A DNA stretch of 36,835 nt. It comes from a virus. Within the stretch, counting starts at the first letter, position 1. Every line of letters begins with the position of its first letter. The position numbers and the translations under genes are program-made. Location of the stretch: IMG/VR virus record IMGVR_UViG_3300045922_000457, positions 1-36,835 of that record. One strand, given 5' to 3'. Shown here piece by piece: positions 2,827-36,835 of this stretch. The notes under the pieces were generated by a model. It did no database searches. It was given only the letters and a program-made list of their open reading frames with translations, and was not told the origin of the DNA.

Positions 2827-3066
2827 TTTAAACCTCGTAGGGCCAAAAAAATCTGCCCTTGCACCGTTTGATACCTCATCCGTAAGGCATTGGAGACAAA
2901 CAAGCACAAAGGCAGAACTCATTTGGAAGGTCTAGGAACCCCATAAGGGGCACACATGACTTAATGTAAGTTTTACATTCTATCTCCCAAAATGACACTA
3001 TATAATTTTTACCATTTATTTTTTATATATTACAATTCTCACAATGATGATTCATAATCACCAGCC
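2827..3066. promoter_or_regulatory. Divergent early/late control region
   Basis: About 240 bp separates the late unit (minus) from the first early gene (plus). On the plus strand, TATAAT at 3001-3006 is a good -10, with only a weak -35 upstream; its start point would be near 3013. The block 3000-3035 is very AT-rich and has TAATAT/TATAAA on the minus strand, fitting a late promoter there. Two perfect palindromes flank the -10: 2963-2979 (AATGTAA, GTT, TTACATT) and 3048-3060 (TGATT, CAT, AATCA). A small CCCC-ATAA-GGGG hairpin lies at 2939-2950. No regulator can be assigned. Confidence 0.5.
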
Positions 3067-3390
3067 ATGAATAACAACCCAAAATACAAATCTTACACGC
3101 CGAATTGTAATGCTTGTTCAGATGTCGGGGTAATCTTGGTCGATGCCGAGTCTCCAGATACCGCTCCATACGCGTTTAAATGCTCGTGCGCGATGGGAAT
3201 GATTAAGTATAGTGCTTTACCCTCTGTTGGACAAATCTATCGTAGAATCAAAAAAGAAGACGGTACGTGGGCAAATCAAGCAAAAGACGTCAATCCAAGC
3301 TACAAACGATCTACCGCCCCCTTCGACAACACCCAAGCCATCGTTCGTAAACCGTCTTTCGTCATCAATGATGAAGATTTAATTTTTTAA
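3067..3390 (+). CDS. Putative zinc-ribbon protein (107 aa)
   Basis: This is the first early gene. The N-terminal half has a four-cysteine pattern, Cys14-x2-Cys17 and Cys39-x-Cys41, spaced like a zinc ribbon. The C-terminal half is basic and polar with no obvious fold. No clear Shine-Dalgarno sequence precedes ATG 3067. The gene is separated from the other early genes by about 1.4 kb, so it probably forms its own transcript from the TATAAT at 3001, ending at the plus-strand terminator-like hairpin at 3450-3528. Function unknown; nucleic-acid binding is a guess from the ribbon. Confidence 0.6.
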   Translation: MNNNPKYKSYTPNCNACSDVGVILVDAESPDTAPYAFKCSCAMGMIKYSALPSVGQIYRRIKKEDGTWANQAKDVNPSYKRSTAPFDNTQAIVRKPSFVINDEDLIF

Positions 3391-3398
3391 ATTTCTCT

Positions 3399-3442
3399 AA
3401 AAAAAAGAATACCCATCTTGAGTTTTATCCCGAGATGGGTAT
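3399..3442 (-). terminator. Strong intrinsic terminator for a minus-strand transcript
   Basis: Read on the minus strand, a perfect 10-bp stem (ATACCCATCT with AGATGGGTAT, loop of 14 nt) is followed after TC by eight T residues. No minus-strand gene lies just upstream, so it either ends a minus-strand RNA coming from 3450-4200 or blocks antisense transcription into the divergent promoter. Confidence 0.65.
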
Positions 3443-3449
3443 GATATGG

Positions 3450-3528
3450 ACTAACAGGATTGCTAGACCCAGAATAAGGCTTCGATGCCTGAGATTCAAT
3501 AGCAATCTTGTTGGTTGCTTATTTTTTT
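3450..3528 (+). terminator. Terminator-like long hairpin for the first early gene
   Basis: ACTAACAGGATTGCT (3450-3464) pairs with AGCAATCTTGTTGGT (3501-3515): 15 pairs, two of them G-U if read as plus-strand RNA. A small inner hairpin AGGC/GCCT lies at 3477-3490. TGCTTA and then seven T residues (3522-3528) follow. The G-U pairs and T tract both favour plus-strand use. The 36-nt loop is long for a terminator, so it may instead be part of the structured RNA that follows. Confidence 0.5.
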
Positions 3529-3539
3529 GGGGTACTCCT

Positions 3540-3804
3540 TGTGGTGCCCACAGTGCGGTGAGATGACTGAAATCGAACGTAGCCGCATGGGATCGAAAGA
3601 TCCTCCTGGCTTGTGCCAGTAGCATAGCTTGAAGAGTAAGGTCCTCGTTCAAGCACACAGGGGCCAGACCGATAGCCGACCGACCGACGTGGTCAGAAAG
3701 TTATCGAGTAAGTATTCGGGACGGGAGTCGTTAAATCGACGGTAATAGTGCCATGACACCTACAGAGAGGTAACTCTGGCACCCCCAAGGGGATCCAGAC
3801 CACC
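3540..3804 (+). ncRNA. Candidate structured non-coding RNA, hairpin-dense
   Basis: Hairpins follow one another almost without gaps. They are 3540-3552 (TGTGG/CCACA), 3553-3588 (GTGCGG/CCGCAT), 3589-3604 (GGGATC, GAAA tetraloop, GATCCT), 3606-3619 (CTGGC/GCCAG), 3627-3654 (GCTTGAA and GAG paired with CTC and TTCAAGC), 3727-3740 (GTCG/CGAC) and 3748-3782 (GTGCCA/TGGCAC with inner ACCT/AGGT). GTGGTC 3689-3694 can pair with GACCAC 3798-3803 and enclose the last two. A GNRA loop and several G-U pairs favour the plus strand; the minus-strand terminator at 3399-3442 argues the other way. It resembles no RNA I can name. Comparison with large phage RNAs such as GOLLD and ROOL is warranted. Confidence 0.45.
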
Positions 3805-4046
3805 CACCCGTAAGTCCTTACAAAAGACCATACGCACCTGCTGGAAGGACGAACATAAAAATAAAATCACACACTAAGTAGTCTTTTTTAGCCATCCCTC
3901 CGCCTCCCTCCCTCCGTGGTCAGGATTACCAGTACTAGGCTGTGTGGTAGCTTGATGGCGGCTTTAATGGAGGTTTTGAATTAGGCTATACTTTAAGTAT
4001 TTGGCTTGAATTCTGTCCTTTGGTTGAATTTAAAAAAAAGAACTTT
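3805..4046. other. Non-coding stretch with polypyrimidine tract and possible long-range helix
   Basis: No gene is supported here. There is a T6 run at 3883-3888, a pyrimidine tract of CCCTCC units at about 3893-3916, and a near-palindrome ATACTT-T-AAGTAT around 3988-4000. GGCTATACTTTA near 3985 is almost complementary to TAAAGTATAACC near 4175, which could close a ~190-nt RNA domain; the one mismatch would be G-U on the minus strand. TATACT at 3987-3992 could alternatively be a plus-strand -10 with a poor -35. Confidence 0.35.
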
Positions 4047-4150
4047 GTAGAAAGCACAGATTGCGAACGATGGCTAGATCATTCGAAAGAAAGACAGCCC
4101 ACGTGCGATATTGGCTACGTAGAAAGATAATACTGCGTACGATGGCTAGA
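4047..4150. repeat. Pair of 32-nt imperfect direct repeats inside a possible RNA domain
   Basis: Copies at 4047-4078 and 4119-4150 share GTAGAAAG, then six variable bases, YTGCG, one base, and ACGATGGCTAGA. They start exactly 72 nt apart. ATCATTC (4078-4084), beginning at the last base of the first copy, can pair with GAATGAT (4156-4162) just after the second, with an extra G-U pair in plus-strand sense. Conserved blocks separated by a variable block look like repeated RNA structural modules or protein-binding sites. Confidence 0.55.
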
Positions 4151-4366
4151 ACTATGAATGATGTCCCACTTACCTAAAGTATAACCAAACACTTTGCACA
4201 ATGTGACCAATGCTAAAACCCATAGGCATGGATCGGGGGGGATATTCCCCCACTCTCACACCCCGCGGGCACGCATGGCAAGGTGGTGCCCCCCTGGGGG
4301 GGTTGATGGTGTGCTTAGGGGTTAGGTTTGTGGGGTTGGATTTTGGGAGGGGGGGTGCTTTTTTGG

Positions 4367-4629
4367 TTACGCATGGGGTTTTGGGGCTTGGGATTCCTTG
4401 GGGGAAGTGAGTGGGTTGTTACGCATGGGGTTTAGGCTTGTGGGTGTTTGGGCTAGTTTGGTTAAGGCTTGGGGGGTTAGGCGCTTGGGTTGGGTTCGGG
4501 GCTTGGCTTCGGGGCTTGGCTTAGGGGTTTTGGCTCTGTGTTACGCTGTGTGTTAGTAAGAGGGTACACTATCCTCAGGCGCTGGGGTTTACCCATGGGG
4601 GTTATGTAAGTGGGTTACCCATTGGGGTT
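4367..4629 (+). repeat. Four iteron-like repeats, TTAC(G/C)CAT(G/T)GGG(G)GTT
   Basis: Copies lie at 4367-4380 (TTACGCATGGGGTT), 4419-4432 (same), 4589-4603 (TTACCCATGGGGGTT) and 4615-4629 (TTACCCATTGGGGTT), all in one orientation. Their start spacings are 52, 170 and 26 bp. Same-orientation short repeats in a non-coding region beside replication genes are typical of initiator-binding iterons, but no initiator protein is recognised in the window. Confidence 0.5.
4495..4520 (+). repeat. 13-bp perfect tandem duplication
   Basis: TTCGGGGCTTGGC occurs twice in immediate tandem (4495-4507 and 4508-4520), followed by TTAGGGG. It lies within the G-rich block and may reflect replication slippage or a repeated binding site. 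Confidence 0.7.
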
Positions 4630-4797
4630 AGTACGAGGGCTACCCCGTTCGTTACACTCACTCTGATGGCGGCTGTGGGTTGGGTTTAGCTTATGGGTGT
4701 TGTGTGTAGTGTCAAGTAAAAAGTGTGGTTATTGGGTTTTTTGGGGGCTTAATTGGAACGCGGCGCATTGGTTGGAATGGGTTTTTTAAAAAAATGC

Positions 4798-4826
4798 TTG
4801 CATTGGTTGTGTAAATGGTGTAATGT
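4798..4826 (+). promoter_or_regulatory. Early promoter with twin GTGTAA motif (copy 1)
   Basis: TTGCAT (4798-4803) lies 17 bp from TAATGT (4821-4826). Between and overlapping these are GTGTAAATG and GTGTAATG (4809-4825), a direct repeat with a 9-nt period. The same twin motif precedes the 89-aa gene and the clamp-like gene. It is placed just before the ribosome site of the first pentapeptide-repeat gene. Confidence 0.5.
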
Positions 4827-4848
4827 TGTAACTGAAAAGGAGGCAAAA

Positions 4849-5544
4849 ATGGCTATACAGTTAAAAAACAAAAATGGTGACGTAATCTACTCTGCTGACG
4901 CCGATAACATAGAGAATGCAATCGTCATGGCGTTGAAAGATGAAGTCGATCTTTCTGGTATTGATTTAAGGGGTCAAAAAATCTACAACCTTCACCTGAA
5001 AAATGTTGACCTAAGTGGTGTAGATTTTTCTGGTGCCTTGCTTGCTGGATGCGAACTATTTAATTCTAATCTGGATGATTCAAACTTCAATAATGCTATA
5101 CTTAGGGGTTGTTCGTTTAATCGCTGCATCATTAGAAGATGCTCTTTTGTTGAATCCGAACTAATAGGATCAGACTTTTATGACTCTTATTTTGTGGGGT
5201 CACGTTTTGAAAATTCTTCCATTGAACGCTGTAGCGTTGAGTTTTCTAATCTAGAAGAGTGTGACATGTTCTTAGTTGACTTAAGTCATTCAAGTTTTTA
5301 CTCGAGTAATTTGTCTTACTCTTCAATGAGAGAAACATACGGAGAAATGGTTAATTTCAACGACGCGAATCTAACCAATTGTGATTTTACGGAGTGTAAT
5401 TTTCTAGATGCTTCTTTTGATGGAGCCAAACTAGAGGGGGCAAACTTTAAGGACGCTGAGATTTATTGCGATGAAATTGATCTTTTAAGTCAAAAAAACA
5501 AACTTAAAAACGTAAAAAACAGCGAATCAATTATTTTTGGTTGA
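4849..5544 (+). CDS. Pentapeptide-repeat protein 1 (231 aa)
   Basis: Residues ~33-205 are made of five-residue repeats of the A(D/N)LXX type, for example DLSGVDFSGALLAGC and the region around NFNNAILRGC, predicting a right-handed beta-helix. Pentapeptide-repeat proteins such as Qnr and MfpA mimic DNA and bind gyrase. A DNA-mimic or anti-defence role is inferred here because the ArdC-like gene follows two genes later and a paralogue lies beyond it. The short N-terminal region (QLKNKNGDVIYSA) is shared with that paralogue. The start is ATG 4849 with AAGGAGG 5 nt upstream; the frame extends to 4753 without a good ribosome site. The protein is unusually Cys-rich and acidic in places. Confidence 0.85.
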   Translation: MAIQLKNKNGDVIYSADADNIENAIVMALKDEVDLSGIDLRGQKIYNLHLKNVDLSGVDFSGALLAGCELFNSNLDDSNFNNAILRGCSFNRCIIRRCSFVESELIGSDFYDSYFVGSRFENSSIERCSVEFSNLEECDMFLVDLSHSSFYSSNLSYSSMRETYGEMVNFNDANLTNCDFTECNFLDASFDGAKLEGANFKDAEIYCDEIDLLSQKNKLKNVKNSESIIFG

Positions 5545-5554
5545 TTTTTTTATT
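5525..5554 (+). terminator. Weak intrinsic terminator overlapping the pentapeptide gene stop
   Basis: AATCAA (5525-5530) pairs with TTGATT (5541-5546) around a 10-nt loop and runs into a T-rich tract. The stem is AT-rich and so weak, but it lies directly between the stop codon and the next promoter motif. Confidence 0.35.
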
Positions 5555-5560
5555 TTAATT

Positions 5561-5577
5561 GTGTAAAGTGTGTAATG
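5561..5577 (+). promoter_or_regulatory. Twin GTGTAA motif (copy 2)
   Basis: GTGTAAAGT followed at once by GTGTAATG reproduces the 9-nt-period motif seen at 4809 and 7595. It sits 15 bp upstream of ATG 5593. No good -35 is seen (T-rich TTATTT at the right distance), so an activator or a non-canonical sigma may be involved. Confidence 0.45.
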
Positions 5578-5592
5578 AAAAGGAGACAAAAT

Positions 5593-5862
5593 ATGAAAAA
5601 ATATTACATTCTAGAAATTCCACACCAAAGACCAGTCACTCTTTATTCTGCCGACCTAAAAGAGCTTCACAGTTTGGCAAACAGGAAAAGTCTTCGGTAT
5701 ATCCCTTACCGAAAGACTAAAATACTTGAGCACCTTGGGCGAGATTTTTACTGTTTCTTCGCAGAAACTTCGAAGCTAGCCATGAAGCGTCGCATACTAT
5801 CATATCAGGGTCACAAAGATAGTGAAGTTTACGCGATGCTTGATCAATTAAAAAATCTTTAA
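5593..5862 (+). CDS. Unknown basic early protein (89 aa)
   Basis: The frame opens at 5575, but ATG 5593 has AAAAGGAG at normal distance and gives MKKYYILEIP. The protein is basic and aromatic-rich without membrane segment or cysteine pattern. It is driven by promoter motif copy 2 and lies 15 bp before the ArdC-like gene, so the two are probably co-transcribed. I do not recognise a family; by position it could be an anti-host or anti-defence protein, but nothing in the sequence shows this. Confidence 0.65.
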   Translation: MKKYYILEIPHQRPVTLYSADLKELHSLANRKSLRYIPYRKTKILEHLGRDFYCFFAETSKLAMKRRILSYQGHKDSEVYAMLDQLKNL

Positions 5863-5877
5863 TTTCAGGATGTTAAA

Positions 5878-6678
5878 ATGGAAAAGATTAAAATAGACAT
5901 GAGCGGGCTTCTCGCCGAAGCCGTATCGAAGCCTGGAATGATACTAGAAGCCTATTCGGCTTTTACTGGCCGATATTCAATCGGTAACCGACTTTGGGCA
6001 ATGCGGCAATGTGTCGAGCGTGGAATTCCAGTCGCGCCCATAGGGACTTTCAAGTTTTGGGAGTCCAAGGGACGACGCGTTAAGAAGGGCGAAAAGGCTT
6101 TATCCTTACTTGTGCCAGTAAAAATCAAAAAAAAAGACGAAAACGGAGAAGAGACTGACGAGAGTTTTGTGCTATTTAGGGCGGTAAACCGTTTTTTTAC
6201 CATGCACCAAACGGAGGGAGAAAATTACACGCCCGAATCTTTTGGTGAATGGAATCGTGACACCGCGCTTAAAAATCTCAATATCAATTTAGTAACTTTC
6301 GAGCATATGAACGGAAACGTGCAAGGTTATGCTTCTGGTAGAGATATCGCAATTAATCCAATGGCGCAATTACCGCATAAAACACTATTCCACGAGATTG
6401 CGCACGTCATTCTTGGCCACACCGATATCGAAGCGCATGACTCTTTCAATACGCCTAGAAATATCAAGGAAGTCGAGGCTGAAAGTGTAGCGCTCATTTG
6501 TTGTGAAGCATTGAAGCTTGAAGGTGCGGAGTATTGCCGAGGATATATTCAGAGTTGGCTTGGATCTAAAAATACTATTGAAGAAAAGTCGGCAAAACGC
6601 ATTTTTTCGGCTGCCAACAAAATCTTAGAAGCTGGCTACGAAAAAAGTGAAGAGGTCGAAAATGAAGACTGCGCTTGA
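5878..6678 (+). CDS. ArdC-like antirestriction protein with metallopeptidase motif
   Basis: The 266-aa product has an N-terminal region like ArdC (DUF1738-type) with FWESKGRRVKKGEKAL at about residues 60-75. A zincin-like domain follows: HEIAH at residues 172-176 (LFHEIAHVILGH), with a likely third zinc ligand in EVEAES (residues 198-203). ArdC proteins bind ssDNA and protect incoming DNA from type I restriction; in this phage it would act early in infection. The start at 5878 follows a modest AGGATG. It is flanked by two pentapeptide-repeat genes, which suggests a counter-defence island. A general ImmA/IrrE-like peptidase role is the alternative. Confidence 0.8.
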   Translation: MEKIKIDMSGLLAEAVSKPGMILEAYSAFTGRYSIGNRLWAMRQCVERGIPVAPIGTFKFWESKGRRVKKGEKALSLLVPVKIKKKDENGEETDESFVLFRAVNRFFTMHQTEGENYTPESFGEWNRDTALKNLNINLVTFEHMNGNVQGYASGRDIAINPMAQLPHKTLFHEIAHVILGHTDIEAHDSFNTPRNIKEVEAESVALICCEALKLEGAEYCRGYIQSWLGSKNTIEEKSAKRIFSAANKILEAGYEKSEEVENEDCA

Positions 6679-6808
6679 TATGCTCAAGTTTTTTGAGGCG
6701 GATCTTAACGATCCGCTTACCGAAAAAATCACGGACGATCTAAGAATGGCTTATCTTATTTATGTAAAACGAATCATTGAATTAATCGAAAACGAAAAGG
6801 AGAACTAA
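6662..6808 (+). CDS. Small protein (48 aa) overlapping the ArdC-like gene
   Basis: ATG 6662 lies 17 nt inside the end of the ArdC-like gene with AGAGGT upstream, and the frame runs to TAA 6808, 2 bp before the second pentapeptide gene. The product is acidic in the first half and helical (MAYLIYVKRIIELIEN). Its stop region contains the ribosome site of the next gene, which fits translational coupling. Function unknown; it fills the only gap in this operon. Confidence 0.6.
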   Translation: MKTALDMLKFFEADLNDPLTEKITDDLRMAYLIYVKRIIELIENEKEN

Positions 6809-6810
6809 AA

Positions 6811-7524
6811 ATGAAAACTTTTGAATTGAGAAAAAAAGACGGTGAAATTCTCTTCCAAAAAGAAGCCTATAGTTTTGAGGATGCTTTATTTAACGCTTCA
6901 TTCTATGAAAAGGTGAATATTTCCGGAGCCGATTTAAGAAACAAAACACTTCGTTGCTTGAAGTTAAAAAACAATGACTTATCTGAAATTGACTTTTCAA
7001 ATTCGACGCTTGAAAACTGTTATTTTGATGGTTCTATTTTGAAAAAATGTAACTTTTCGAATGCAATAATCAGAAATTGCAATTTCAGTAATGCAAAGTT
7101 GTTAGAATGCAATTTCGATGGTTGCAAAATCTTTGGAACAGAATTCAAAGATTCAGAGCTTAAAAAAGCTAGTATCAATTACGCAATAGTTTACTCTTGC
7201 GATTTTGAAAATTCCAAAACGACAGAATCTATTATATCCTTCTCTGATCTATCTTTGTGTAATTTTGTAAGATCATATCTTTTAAAAACAAACATAAATG
7301 AATGCCATGGATTTAAGGTTTATTTTGAAAATGCCGACTTGTCAGAAAGTACTTTTAAAAAGTGCGTGTTCCACAAGCCTTCATTTAGAATGGCAAAAAT
7401 AAAAAATGCTAGTTTTGATGATATTAGAATCGATCTTTCTAGTGAGGTAGGAATTAATCACGCTAGAGCGTTCTTTTTAAACAATTCGAGATTTTGTGAA
7501 TATATGGTTTTCACAAAAGACTAA
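6811..7524 (+). CDS. Pentapeptide-repeat protein 2 (237 aa)
   Basis: This is a paralogue of the protein at 4849. It shares the N-terminal K-x-K-x-G-(D/E)-I-x pattern (MKTFELRKKDGEILFQ), the same spacing to the first repeat and about 30 pentapeptide repeats (NISGADLRNK, CNFSNAIIRNCNFSNAKLLE), predicting a beta-helix of about the same length. The two copies flank the ArdC-like gene, so one could have arisen by local duplication, followed by strong divergence. The ATG follows AAAAGGAG by 8 nt. DNA mimicry against gyrase or restriction enzymes is inference from the family and the context. Confidence 0.85.
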   Translation: MKTFELRKKDGEILFQKEAYSFEDALFNASFYEKVNISGADLRNKTLRCLKLKNNDLSEIDFSNSTLENCYFDGSILKKCNFSNAIIRNCNFSNAKLLECNFDGCKIFGTEFKDSELKKASINYAIVYSCDFENSKTTESIISFSDLSLCNFVRSYLLKTNINECHGFKVYFENADLSESTFKKCVFHKPSFRMAKIKNASFDDIRIDLSSEVGINHARAFFLNNSRFCEYMVFTKD

Positions 7525-7584: not shown

Positions 7585-7612
7585 TTGAAAATAAGTGTAA
7601 AATGTGTAAAAA
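7585..7612 (+). promoter_or_regulatory. Early promoter with twin GTGTAA motif (copy 3)
   Basis: TTGAAA (7585-7590) is 16 bp from TAAAAA (7607-7612), and GTGTAAAAT plus GTGTAAAA occupy 7595-7611 with the same 9-nt period as copies 1 and 2. It drives the clamp-like gene at 7640. Confidence 0.5.
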
Positions 7613-12408: not shown

Positions 12409-13128
12409 ATGAGCACTGAAGATGCTGGTTCTGGCATTGTTAATTCTTGTGCAGTTTTTGATTCTAAAGGAGTTATCGAGTCTGGTGGAGTCAATGGGTC
12501 TTGTGGAGTCTATCGATCTTGCGGAGTTAATTATTCTGAAGGAGTTAGCGGTTCTAGCAGTGTTAACCTAACTAACGGCGTAAATGGGTCTTTCGGTGTT
12601 AACTTATCTAACGGTGTTAACGTTTCTTACGGAGTTAATAGGTCAGGCGCGGTTAGCTGGTCTTATGGGGTTGACTTGTCTACTGGTGTTAGCAATTCTT
12701 ACGGATTGTTTAATTGCAGAGGCGTGAGCTACTCTATTTTTGATGTTAATAGAAAAACTTGTCCCACAATCTTTGGGAAAAAAGTTTCTGAAAAAAGATT
12801 TGAAGAAGTGTTTGATAAAATTAAGAAACTAAGTAATGGTTGGTATCCTGAATTCAATAACATAAAATCTCTTTATTTAAAGAATGGATCCAATTGGGTA
12901 AAGACGCCAATTAAAGATGCTGTTGAATTATCAGCAAAAGAGGCTTGGAGTGGCATGCCCAAAGAACTTTTAGAATATATCAAAAACCTGCCAGAATTTG
13001 ATGCTGACATATTTTTTGAGGTAACAGGAATCGATCTTCGATGTCCAAAGACAATTAAGATAAGTCACGAAGGCAGGGAGTTTGAGATTGATGTTGAAAA
13101 AGCAAAAGAACTGGGGGTTATAAAATGA
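12409..13128 (+). CDS. Hexapeptide tandem-repeat protein (GVNxSx type, 239 aa)
   Basis: Residues ~8-110 are built from about 16 six-residue units of the form (S/T)-x-G-V-(N/S)-x, for example SCGVNY, SFGVNL, SNGVNV and SYGVNR. This predicts a solenoid, distinct from the pentapeptide repeats elsewhere in this phage. A non-repetitive C-terminal half of ~125 residues follows (SLYLKNGSNWVKTPIKDA and a short beta end). A strong GGAGG precedes ATG 12409. It lies directly after the recombination genes and overlaps the next gene as ATGA. The function is unknown. Confidence 0.75.
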   Translation: MSTEDAGSGIVNSCAVFDSKGVIESGGVNGSCGVYRSCGVNYSEGVSGSSSVNLTNGVNGSFGVNLSNGVNVSYGVNRSGAVSWSYGVDLSTGVSNSYGLFNCRGVSYSIFDVNRKTCPTIFGKKVSEKRFEEVFDKIKKLSNGWYPEFNNIKSLYLKNGSNWVKTPIKDAVELSAKEAWSGMPKELLEYIKNLPEFDADIFFEVTGIDLRCPKTIKISHEGREFEIDVEKAKELGVIK

Positions 13129-35168: not shown

Positions 35169-35311
35169 TAGTTTAATTCTTTCACCGATTCTTTTTCCTT
35201 GCAAATAAAATGACCACCGCCAATTGGCTCGCACTTACTTGAGTCAACAAGGTAGCTCGAAGTCCCACACGATGACAGAATTAAAGCTGATAAGATTAGT
35301 AGGTATTTCAT
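35168..35311 (-). CDS. Short lipoprotein C (47 aa)
   Basis: It is too short for most gene callers. It starts at ATG 35311, with its ATG overlapping the fibre gene's TGA (ATGA), and stops in TAATG with the holin-like gene. The product begins MKYLLILSALILSSC, a lipoprotein signal peptide with a clear LSSC lipobox. The mature part carries KCEPIGGGHFICKE, which matches the Cys-x-GGH-IC hairpin of lipoproteins A and B. It may be a spanin-like or envelope-exclusion protein. Confidence 0.75.
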   Translation of the reverse strand: MKYLLILSALILSSCGTSSYLVDSSKCEPIGGGHFICKEKESVKELN

Positions 35312-36835
35312 AGTGAACCTCTTGGGCCGATGCACATAACCGATGCTCTTACATCATATGCAGGATCAGTTGTTAATCGTGCATATATGTTAAATACTGT
35401 TGGAGAAGACGGGACAATATCCATATTAACACCAGCATTGATTCCATTAGTAACAAAACAATTTGGCTGAGATGCAAATACTCCACTATTTATAGTCATT
35501 TGATAATTTCCTGTAGAACTTCTAGTAATTGAAGAAATCCAATTAGAAGTAGGCCTCAAAATAGCGCATGGACTTGATGTGCACGCAGTGTCGTCTGCAC
35601 TTCCAAACTCAGCACTCTCAATCCTAAGACTTCCAGCACTTAAGCTTGTTACACTTCCGACTAGGTTTGGTGCTGGGAGGGATTGGGAGAGTGGACGGAG
35701 ACCGAGTTGTATTGGCGTCCCATCACTTGCGCCATCACCAAAATACATTCCGCACCCTCCGGTTCCAGAATGTCTTCTTGCTACAACATAAAACTCTCTT
35801 GTTTGTGTGTTATTATAGGAAAAATTGGCTATATACGACGAAACCCACCTTGCATTTGTTCCTCCAAAATTCATAAAAATTTCTGGAGGAACAAACGATG
35901 TTCCATCCAAAATACTAAAATAGCAATTATTATCGCTACTAGTAAAAAGAGTGTTTCCTCCAGTAAAAAACGCTTCATAATCACCGGCCGGAAGATTTTC
36001 AAATCGAACACAAATTCTATTTGTATCTGAACATGGCCTTGCTCTTCCAATATAGCTTGCATAGTTTTGAAGGTTGGTAACAGTTAGTGGAGTTCTTGTG
36101 TTTACTGTAACAGAGTTTGAACTAACGTTACCAGACGATGTTGTATACTTCACAGAACCATAAACATTCTGCGTCTCAGGCCTTACAGCAATCTCTGATT
36201 GAAGTGGGTAGCGGTAGACTTCGATTGTTGTCGGACTGTCTGTTCCGCACTGTCCAGTACTCGAGGTTTCTTTGTAACCTTGCACATATATTGTCAAATC
36301 ATTTATTGCGTTTTGATAAATAATATTACCGCCAATCATCGGTACAATATCACTACCAGAGATATCATAAGTTCTGTTAAATTGAGCAAAATTTGTTCCG
36401 TCCGTAAACCTAAACTGACATCCATCGAAACTAGAAGCATTATGTCTTCCAAAAGAACCGATTCCTCTAAAAACATATTTTCCTGGCTTTTGATTAACCA
36501 TTCTAAAGCCTAACAAATTTGTTGTTGGTTGTAGCAAATCTCCAGTAACATTATAAACACATCCACTAGCTGTATAATTTATCCAAGTTCCTACCGTTGT
36601 AGTTCTAAAAGCACAATTAGAAATAACAACGGTGCCCAACAATTCCGCCTGCGCAACAGTTCCAACATTCCTTGCTAGCCCCAAGTAAACATCATCAATG
36701 TATAGAACAGGCTCATCAGCTGCTACACTTCTGATTCTTGCAGAAATATTCCCAGAAGTTGGTGCAACGAAATTTAAAGTCGTCCTAGTATATGTTGTCG
36801 AGCTAGTAATAGTTTGACTTGCAATAACGTTTGTT
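35308..36835 (-). CDS. Exported Cys-rich fibre-like protein, C-terminal part (continues from 1..608)
   Basis: The frame is open from the right window edge to TGA 35308. In this strand the first base completes codon GAA begun at bases 2-1, so the joined gene has 711 codons plus stop. The product is Ser/Thr/Asn/Gly-rich with about a dozen cysteines, many spaced as likely disulfide pairs (GQCGT, DTACTSSPC, GGCGM), unusual for a cytoplasmic assembly protein but normal for an exported one. The CTSSPC and WISSITRSSTGNY phrases recall surface proteins of predatory bacteria such as Bdellovibrio. No internal start is needed if the genome is circular. This may be a displayed adhesin or a virion fibre. 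Confidence 0.8.
   Translation of the reverse strand, partial: TNVIASQTITSSTTYTRTTLNFVAPTSGNISARIRSVAADEPVLYIDDVYLGLARNVGTVAQAELLGTVVISNCAFRTTTVGTWINYTASGCVYNVTGDLLQPTTNLLGFRMVNQKPGKYVFRGIGSFGRHNASSFDGCQFRFTDGTNFAQFNRTYDISGSDIVPMIGGNIIYQNAINDLTIYVQGYKETSSTGQCGTDSPTTIEVYRYPLQSEIAVRPETQNVYGSVKYTTSSGNVSSNSVTVNTRTPLTVTNLQNYASYIGRARPCSDTNRICVRFENLPAGDYEAFFTGGNTLFTSSDNNCYFSILDGTSFVPPEIFMNFGGTNARWVSSYIANFSYNNTQTREFYVVARRHSGTGGCGMYFGDGASDGTPIQLGLRPLSQSLPAPNLVGSVTSLSAGSLRIESAEFGSADDTACTSSPCAILRPTSNWISSITRSSTGNYQMTINSGVFASQPNCFVTNGINAGVNMDIVPSSPTVFNIYARLTTDPAYDVRASVMCIGPRGSL

Follow-up and report, generated by a model that had tools for sequence, protein, structure and literature searches.

ArdC proteins in plasmids and phages

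Most work on ArdC has concerned conjugative plasmids. The protein of one such plasmid, R388 (structures 6i89 and 6sna), is built of two domains, an ArdC-N domain that binds ssDNA and a zincin domain in which an HExxH motif is complemented by a downstream glutamate ligand. R388 ArdC binds ssDNA and has antirestriction activity against HsdRMS, for which mutation of the protease site is tolerated; since the E229A mutant still supports conjugation, protease activity is unneeded for antirestriction (PMC7213743). The likeness of the C-terminal domain to IrrE and of the N-terminal domain to Rad4/XPC has been published for ArdC (PMC7213743). Among phage polyvalent proteins, ArdC-N has been reported to be rare (PMC5512222).

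The DNA considered here, called the window, is one complete IMG/VR virus record of 36,835 bp in which an ardC gene is flanked by two genes for pentapeptide-repeat proteins. We regard this arrangement, with moderate confidence, as a conserved early ArdC antirestriction gene accompanied by two lineage-specific pentapeptide accessory genes. The genes probably became neighbours locally and do not form a multi-part weapon that is conserved.

Gene content of the locus

The five genes from PPR1 to PPR2 constitute the head of a tailed-phage early region, and a sliding-clamp-like gene follows them. The features are:

4809..4823, + strand: leader motif GTGTAAATGGTGTAA, upstream of PPR1; exact match to GTGTAAANNGTGTAA
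4849-5544, + strand: PPR1, acidic pentapeptide-repeat protein, 231 aa; Pfam Pentapeptide 9.7e-30
5561..5575, + strand: leader motif GTGTAAAGTGTGTAA, upstream of orf89-ArdC-orf48-PPR2; exact match to GTGTAAANNGTGTAA
5593-5862, + strand: orf89, small basic protein, 89 aa, pI 9.7
5878-6678, + strand: ArdC-family protein, 266 aa, with ArdC-N ssDNA-binding and zincin-like domains; Pfam ArdcN
6662-6808, + strand: orf48, 48 aa, overlapping the 3' end and stop of ardC
6811-7524, + strand: PPR2, pentapeptide-repeat paralogue of PPR1, 237 aa; Pfam Pentapeptide 3.3e-22
7595..7609, + strand: leader motif GTGTAAAATGTGTAA, third copy, upstream of the clamp gene; exact match to GTGTAAANNGTGTAA
7640-8251, + strand: sliding-clamp-like (processivity factor) gene; phrog_947 6.6e-5

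All five frames between 4849 and 7524 were found where a previous reading of the sequence alone had placed them, and the Pfam scores of the two pentapeptide proteins, together with an ArdcN score above its gathering threshold, indicate that the observation is not due to chance. A AAAAGGAG-type ribosome site precedes PPR1, orf89 and PPR2. The two small genes, orf89 and orf48, gave no match in the Pfam, PHROGs, NCBIfam or PADLOC libraries, and orf89 had no phage match either. Further along the same early region there are recombination genes for RusA and a PD-(D/E)XK exonuclease, as recognised by Pfam.

The pattern GTGTAAANNGTGTAA has exactly three matches in the window: one lies 25 bases ahead of the PPR1 start, one 17 bases ahead of that of orf89 and one 30 bases ahead of that of the clamp gene. 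It was absent from 100 shuffled sequences, a statistic that is optimistic, as the pattern was picked from these very sites, and also from all fetched loci of other genomes. The placement of the three sites is striking and is the sole positive sign of a unit; it suggests that PPR1, the group from orf89 to PPR2 and the clamp gene are expressed together through this leader element.

The ArdC-family protein

The evidence that the middle gene encodes a genuine ArdC-family protein, as the sequence-only reading had proposed, is strong. The protein scores 33.4 bits against Pfam ArdcN (gathering cut-off 22.6) and, in the PHROGs search, its residues 33-249 match PHROG 7245 (E=5.5e-13), whose annotation as 'anti-restriction protein' is by homology only. 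A search of the PDB with the single sequence gave no match; a profile of 16 ArdC relatives matched R388 ArdC (6i89/6sna) at E=6e-13. In structural comparison, 236 residues of the predicted model (pLDDT 88.3), covering both domains, can be superimposed on 6i89 (Z 12.3, rmsd 5.2). The next-best match is IrrE/PprI, with the C-terminal domain (Z 6.4), and the N-terminal domain aligns to Rad4/XPC at Z about 3.5. A PADLOC match to Lit was rejected, being weak (E=0.0047) and limited to 22 residues around the zinc motif.

The C-terminal domain carries a gluzincin motif, defined in PMC7213743 as HExxH plus (E,H)xx(A,F,T,S,G), in the form of HEIAH at residues 172-176 followed by E198-V-E-A201. H172, E173, H176 and E198 are invariant in all 16 aligned ArdC sequences, and the profile alignment, read together with PMC7213743, suggests that E198 corresponds to the R388 metal ligand E229. 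The two proteins therefore share the two-domain layout and the metal ligands, but their identity in the structural alignment is about 17% and K197 of the window protein is aligned with R388 E228. They also differ in location: R388 ArdC sits on a conjugative plasmid, whereas the window protein, whose activity is predicted, belongs to a tailed-phage early region. As an ArdC it is unexceptional, and what is less studied is the setting in which this known family occurs here.

This ArdC combines an N-terminal Rad4/BHD-like ssDNA-binding domain with a zincin domain of the IrrE type. It would be made early and would most likely coat phage DNA that has newly entered the cell or is newly replicating and, like its R388 counterpart, hinder type I (HsdRMS-like) restriction. 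The metal site is intact, and its activity may be unneeded for antirestriction.

Gene neighbourhood of ardC in relatives

Comparison of terminases led to G001 (40,932 bp, TerL 82%) as the nearest relative, which is syntenic with most of the window. It encodes an ArdC that is 63% identical to that of the window, and no pentapeptide protein was found in it. At the position of orf48 it has a 43-aa ORF whose homology to orf48 is weak and not established, and after this ORF two small Cys-containing ORFs stand in place of PPR2.

A scan of the viral collection with the single ArdC protein gave no relatives, and ArdC relatives are encoded on 50 viral contigs and in 980 plasmid records. The closest cellular relatives are mostly from Burkholderiales, which does not fix the host of the phage. 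A PF00805 search over the whole of these viral contigs, in which both window pentapeptide proteins were recovered as a control, found a pentapeptide protein on 0 of the 50, many of them being fragments, so that absence from a contig does not equal absence from the phage. Likewise, a profile search extending up to 4 kb on each side of 78 bacterial ArdC loci yielded no pentapeptide gene, the same profile having recovered a Caulobacter phage control. A Delftia plasmid record with an ArdC relative has no pentapeptide gene among its annotated genes. Thus, there is no conserved ArdC-pentapeptide linkage in the sampled relatives, and the same gene set, which the sequence-only reading had suggested looking for in other phages, did not turn up.

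As a neighbour of ardC, the clamp gene is better conserved than the pentapeptide genes. Of the 51 ArdC records, 9 have a clamp-like gene, which is near ardC in at least four groups (the window, G001, G011-G014, G023-G024 and G040). The clamp gene is in line with ardC in the window, whereas its G001 counterpart (32% identity) is divergently oriented, so the gene was moved or inverted. In addition, the distance from ardC to divergently transcribed terminase genes is no more than about 2.1 kb at loci L021, L024, L027 and L031.

This recurrence in several lineages raises the question of whether phage ArdC could serve replication instead. Its main task would then be to assist replication or repair: as a metalloprotease that binds ssDNA and associates with the clamp, it would clear proteins off phage DNA in the manner of Spartan/SprT or IrrE, with protection from restriction as a secondary effect. 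The invariance of the metal site, the second place of IrrE/PprI among the structural matches, the nearby clamp-like genes and the RusA and exonuclease genes that follow in the early region are all consistent with such a role. However, the precedent within the family is antirestriction (PMC7213743), no clamp gene was seen on the other 42 of the 51 records, and the link to the clamp may be positional, replication genes being early neighbours in many phages. We consider this role rather unlikely, and antirestriction by an early ArdC the better account of the gene.

The pentapeptide-repeat proteins

PPR1 and PPR2 are true, diverged paralogues: they are 33% identical over 205 aa (E=9e-33) in an alignment that starts at residue 2-3 and includes the N-terminal cap, in agreement with the previous proposal of a shared cap and strong divergence. 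Tandem A(D/N)LXX repeats are recognised in both by Pfam, and the PPR1 model (pLDDT 90.8) is a beta-helix. In this single-chain model a cap consisting of a hairpin (2-17) and a helix (21-30) is followed by the solenoid. As regards the C-terminal helix dimer of Qnr and MfpA, residues 210-213 of PPR1 form no more than a short helix, and residues 223-231 have pLDDT below 50. Scans of the viral collection with PPR2 alone, or with a two-row alignment of PPR1 and PPR2, gave no relatives and gathered no proteins with the same cap. Plasmid matches H100-H102 cover 98% of PPR1 and were set aside; the one inspected, H101, is part of a longer protein from a T6SS neighbourhood.

By composition, PPR1 has a net charge of -19 (pI 4.33), and its four faces, as assigned from an inferred register, are all net negative; PPR2, with +1 (pI 7.45), is near-neutral. 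Because one is acidic and the other neutral, their binding partners, in host or phage, are probably not the same. The PPR1 solenoid carries -10.7 net charges per 100 residues, compared with +0.5 to -9.5 in a set of six further pentapeptide proteins or stretches of solenoid; since the latter reach -9.5, acidity is common in the class.

The best structural matches of PPR1 are designed solenoids and HetL (3du1; Z 25.1 over 209 residues, PPR1 range 5-231), followed by AlbG, Qnr and MfpA (Z 21-23). PPR1 resembles the last three in its right-handed quadrilateral beta-helix, similar length and acidity, but the alignment to Qnr and MfpA does not include its hairpin-helix cap, PPR2 is not acidic, and in NCBIfam neither protein comes near the cut-offs for Qnr (43.2 and 52.5 bits against 240) and MfpA (36.7 and 49.5 bits against 360). 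HetL is a heterocyst-differentiation protein and is not known as a gyrase inhibitor, and its likeness in fold is uninformative on PPR1 function; as it fits PPR1 as well as or better than Qnr, MfpA or AlbG, the fold is not diagnostic of gyrase. TM scores from Foldseek on the solenoid were low and uninformative.

These data bear on the idea, put forward in the sequence-only reading, of a multi-part counter-defence island in which ArdC shields DNA and both pentapeptide proteins, as DNA mimics, occupy host enzymes that target DNA, such as gyrase-linked or restriction systems. The acidity of PPR1, its alignment to Qnr, MfpA and AlbG, the leader motif common to PPR1 and the ardC operon and the early position would all fit. 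Nevertheless, the linkage is not conserved in G001 or at any other sampled viral or bacterial locus, a DNA-like charge, judged by composition, is confined to PPR1, HetL is at least as good a match, other solenoids are acidic too, and the proposed gyrase link finds no specific support in the family scores. In a study of T7 Ocr and BREX, the pentapeptide mimics McbG and QnrB gave no BREX relief (PMC7261183), which is a small caution against taking pentapeptide proteins for defence inhibitors by default. What stands of the proposal is a real ArdC, the head of an early region and a shared leader motif; the conserved association and half of the charge pattern do not, and the island is mostly not supported and quite improbable. 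A narrower version, in which PPR1 is an acidic DNA mimic acting with ArdC under the shared early leader element and PPR2 has been remodelled for another partner, as a duplicated and specialised counter-defence pair, is highly improbable in our view. There is no evidence that PPR1, PPR2 and ArdC work as one mechanism.

At the opposite extreme, the pentapeptide proteins might have nothing to do with defence and be neutral cargo or scaffolds, retained since a duplication or two acquisitions. Phage pentapeptide proteins are scattered and lack a common context, these two genes are missing from every sampled ArdC relative, and PPR2 is neutral. But both frames are intact, full-length and diverged, their ribosome sites are good, and a leader motif is shared, which suggests expression and selection. 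We consider neutral cargo unlikely. The best reading of both genes is that they are lineage-specific accessory neighbours placed around ardC, with putative functions.

Other features of the window

Upstream of PPR1, positions 3400-4850 comprise about 1.3 kb that is devoid of good genes, G-rich and provided with imperfect repeats of 20-22 nt. Positions 4231-4300 are GC-rich and can be aligned with a similar stretch at the corresponding place in G001. RNA folding of the G-rich region was no better than that of shuffled sequence, and no Rfam matches were obtained; the region may serve as an origin or in packaging. Between the ardC/clamp end and the terminase end, G001 has a DnaB-like helicase gene and a possible initiator gene (38666-40292, versus window 2923-4848), for which comparison of both genomes gave no window counterpart.

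At 12409-13128 the window encodes a 239-aa protein, possibly another solenoid, in which tandem repeats of the GVxxSxGVNxS type make up the N-terminal half; it has no Pfam match and weak PHROGs matches only. Set against the gene order of G001, the window seems to be circularly permuted, so that a tail gene would be split by the record ends (35308-36834 and 1-617).

Concluding remarks

The pentapeptide neighbours of this ardC gene are local additions and should not be cited as evidence of a pentapeptide-ArdC module for defence evasion. What the locus contributes is a clear two-domain ArdC for a group of tailed phages. Its gene is found close to where the early region begins and, on several contigs that are related, near packaging genes.
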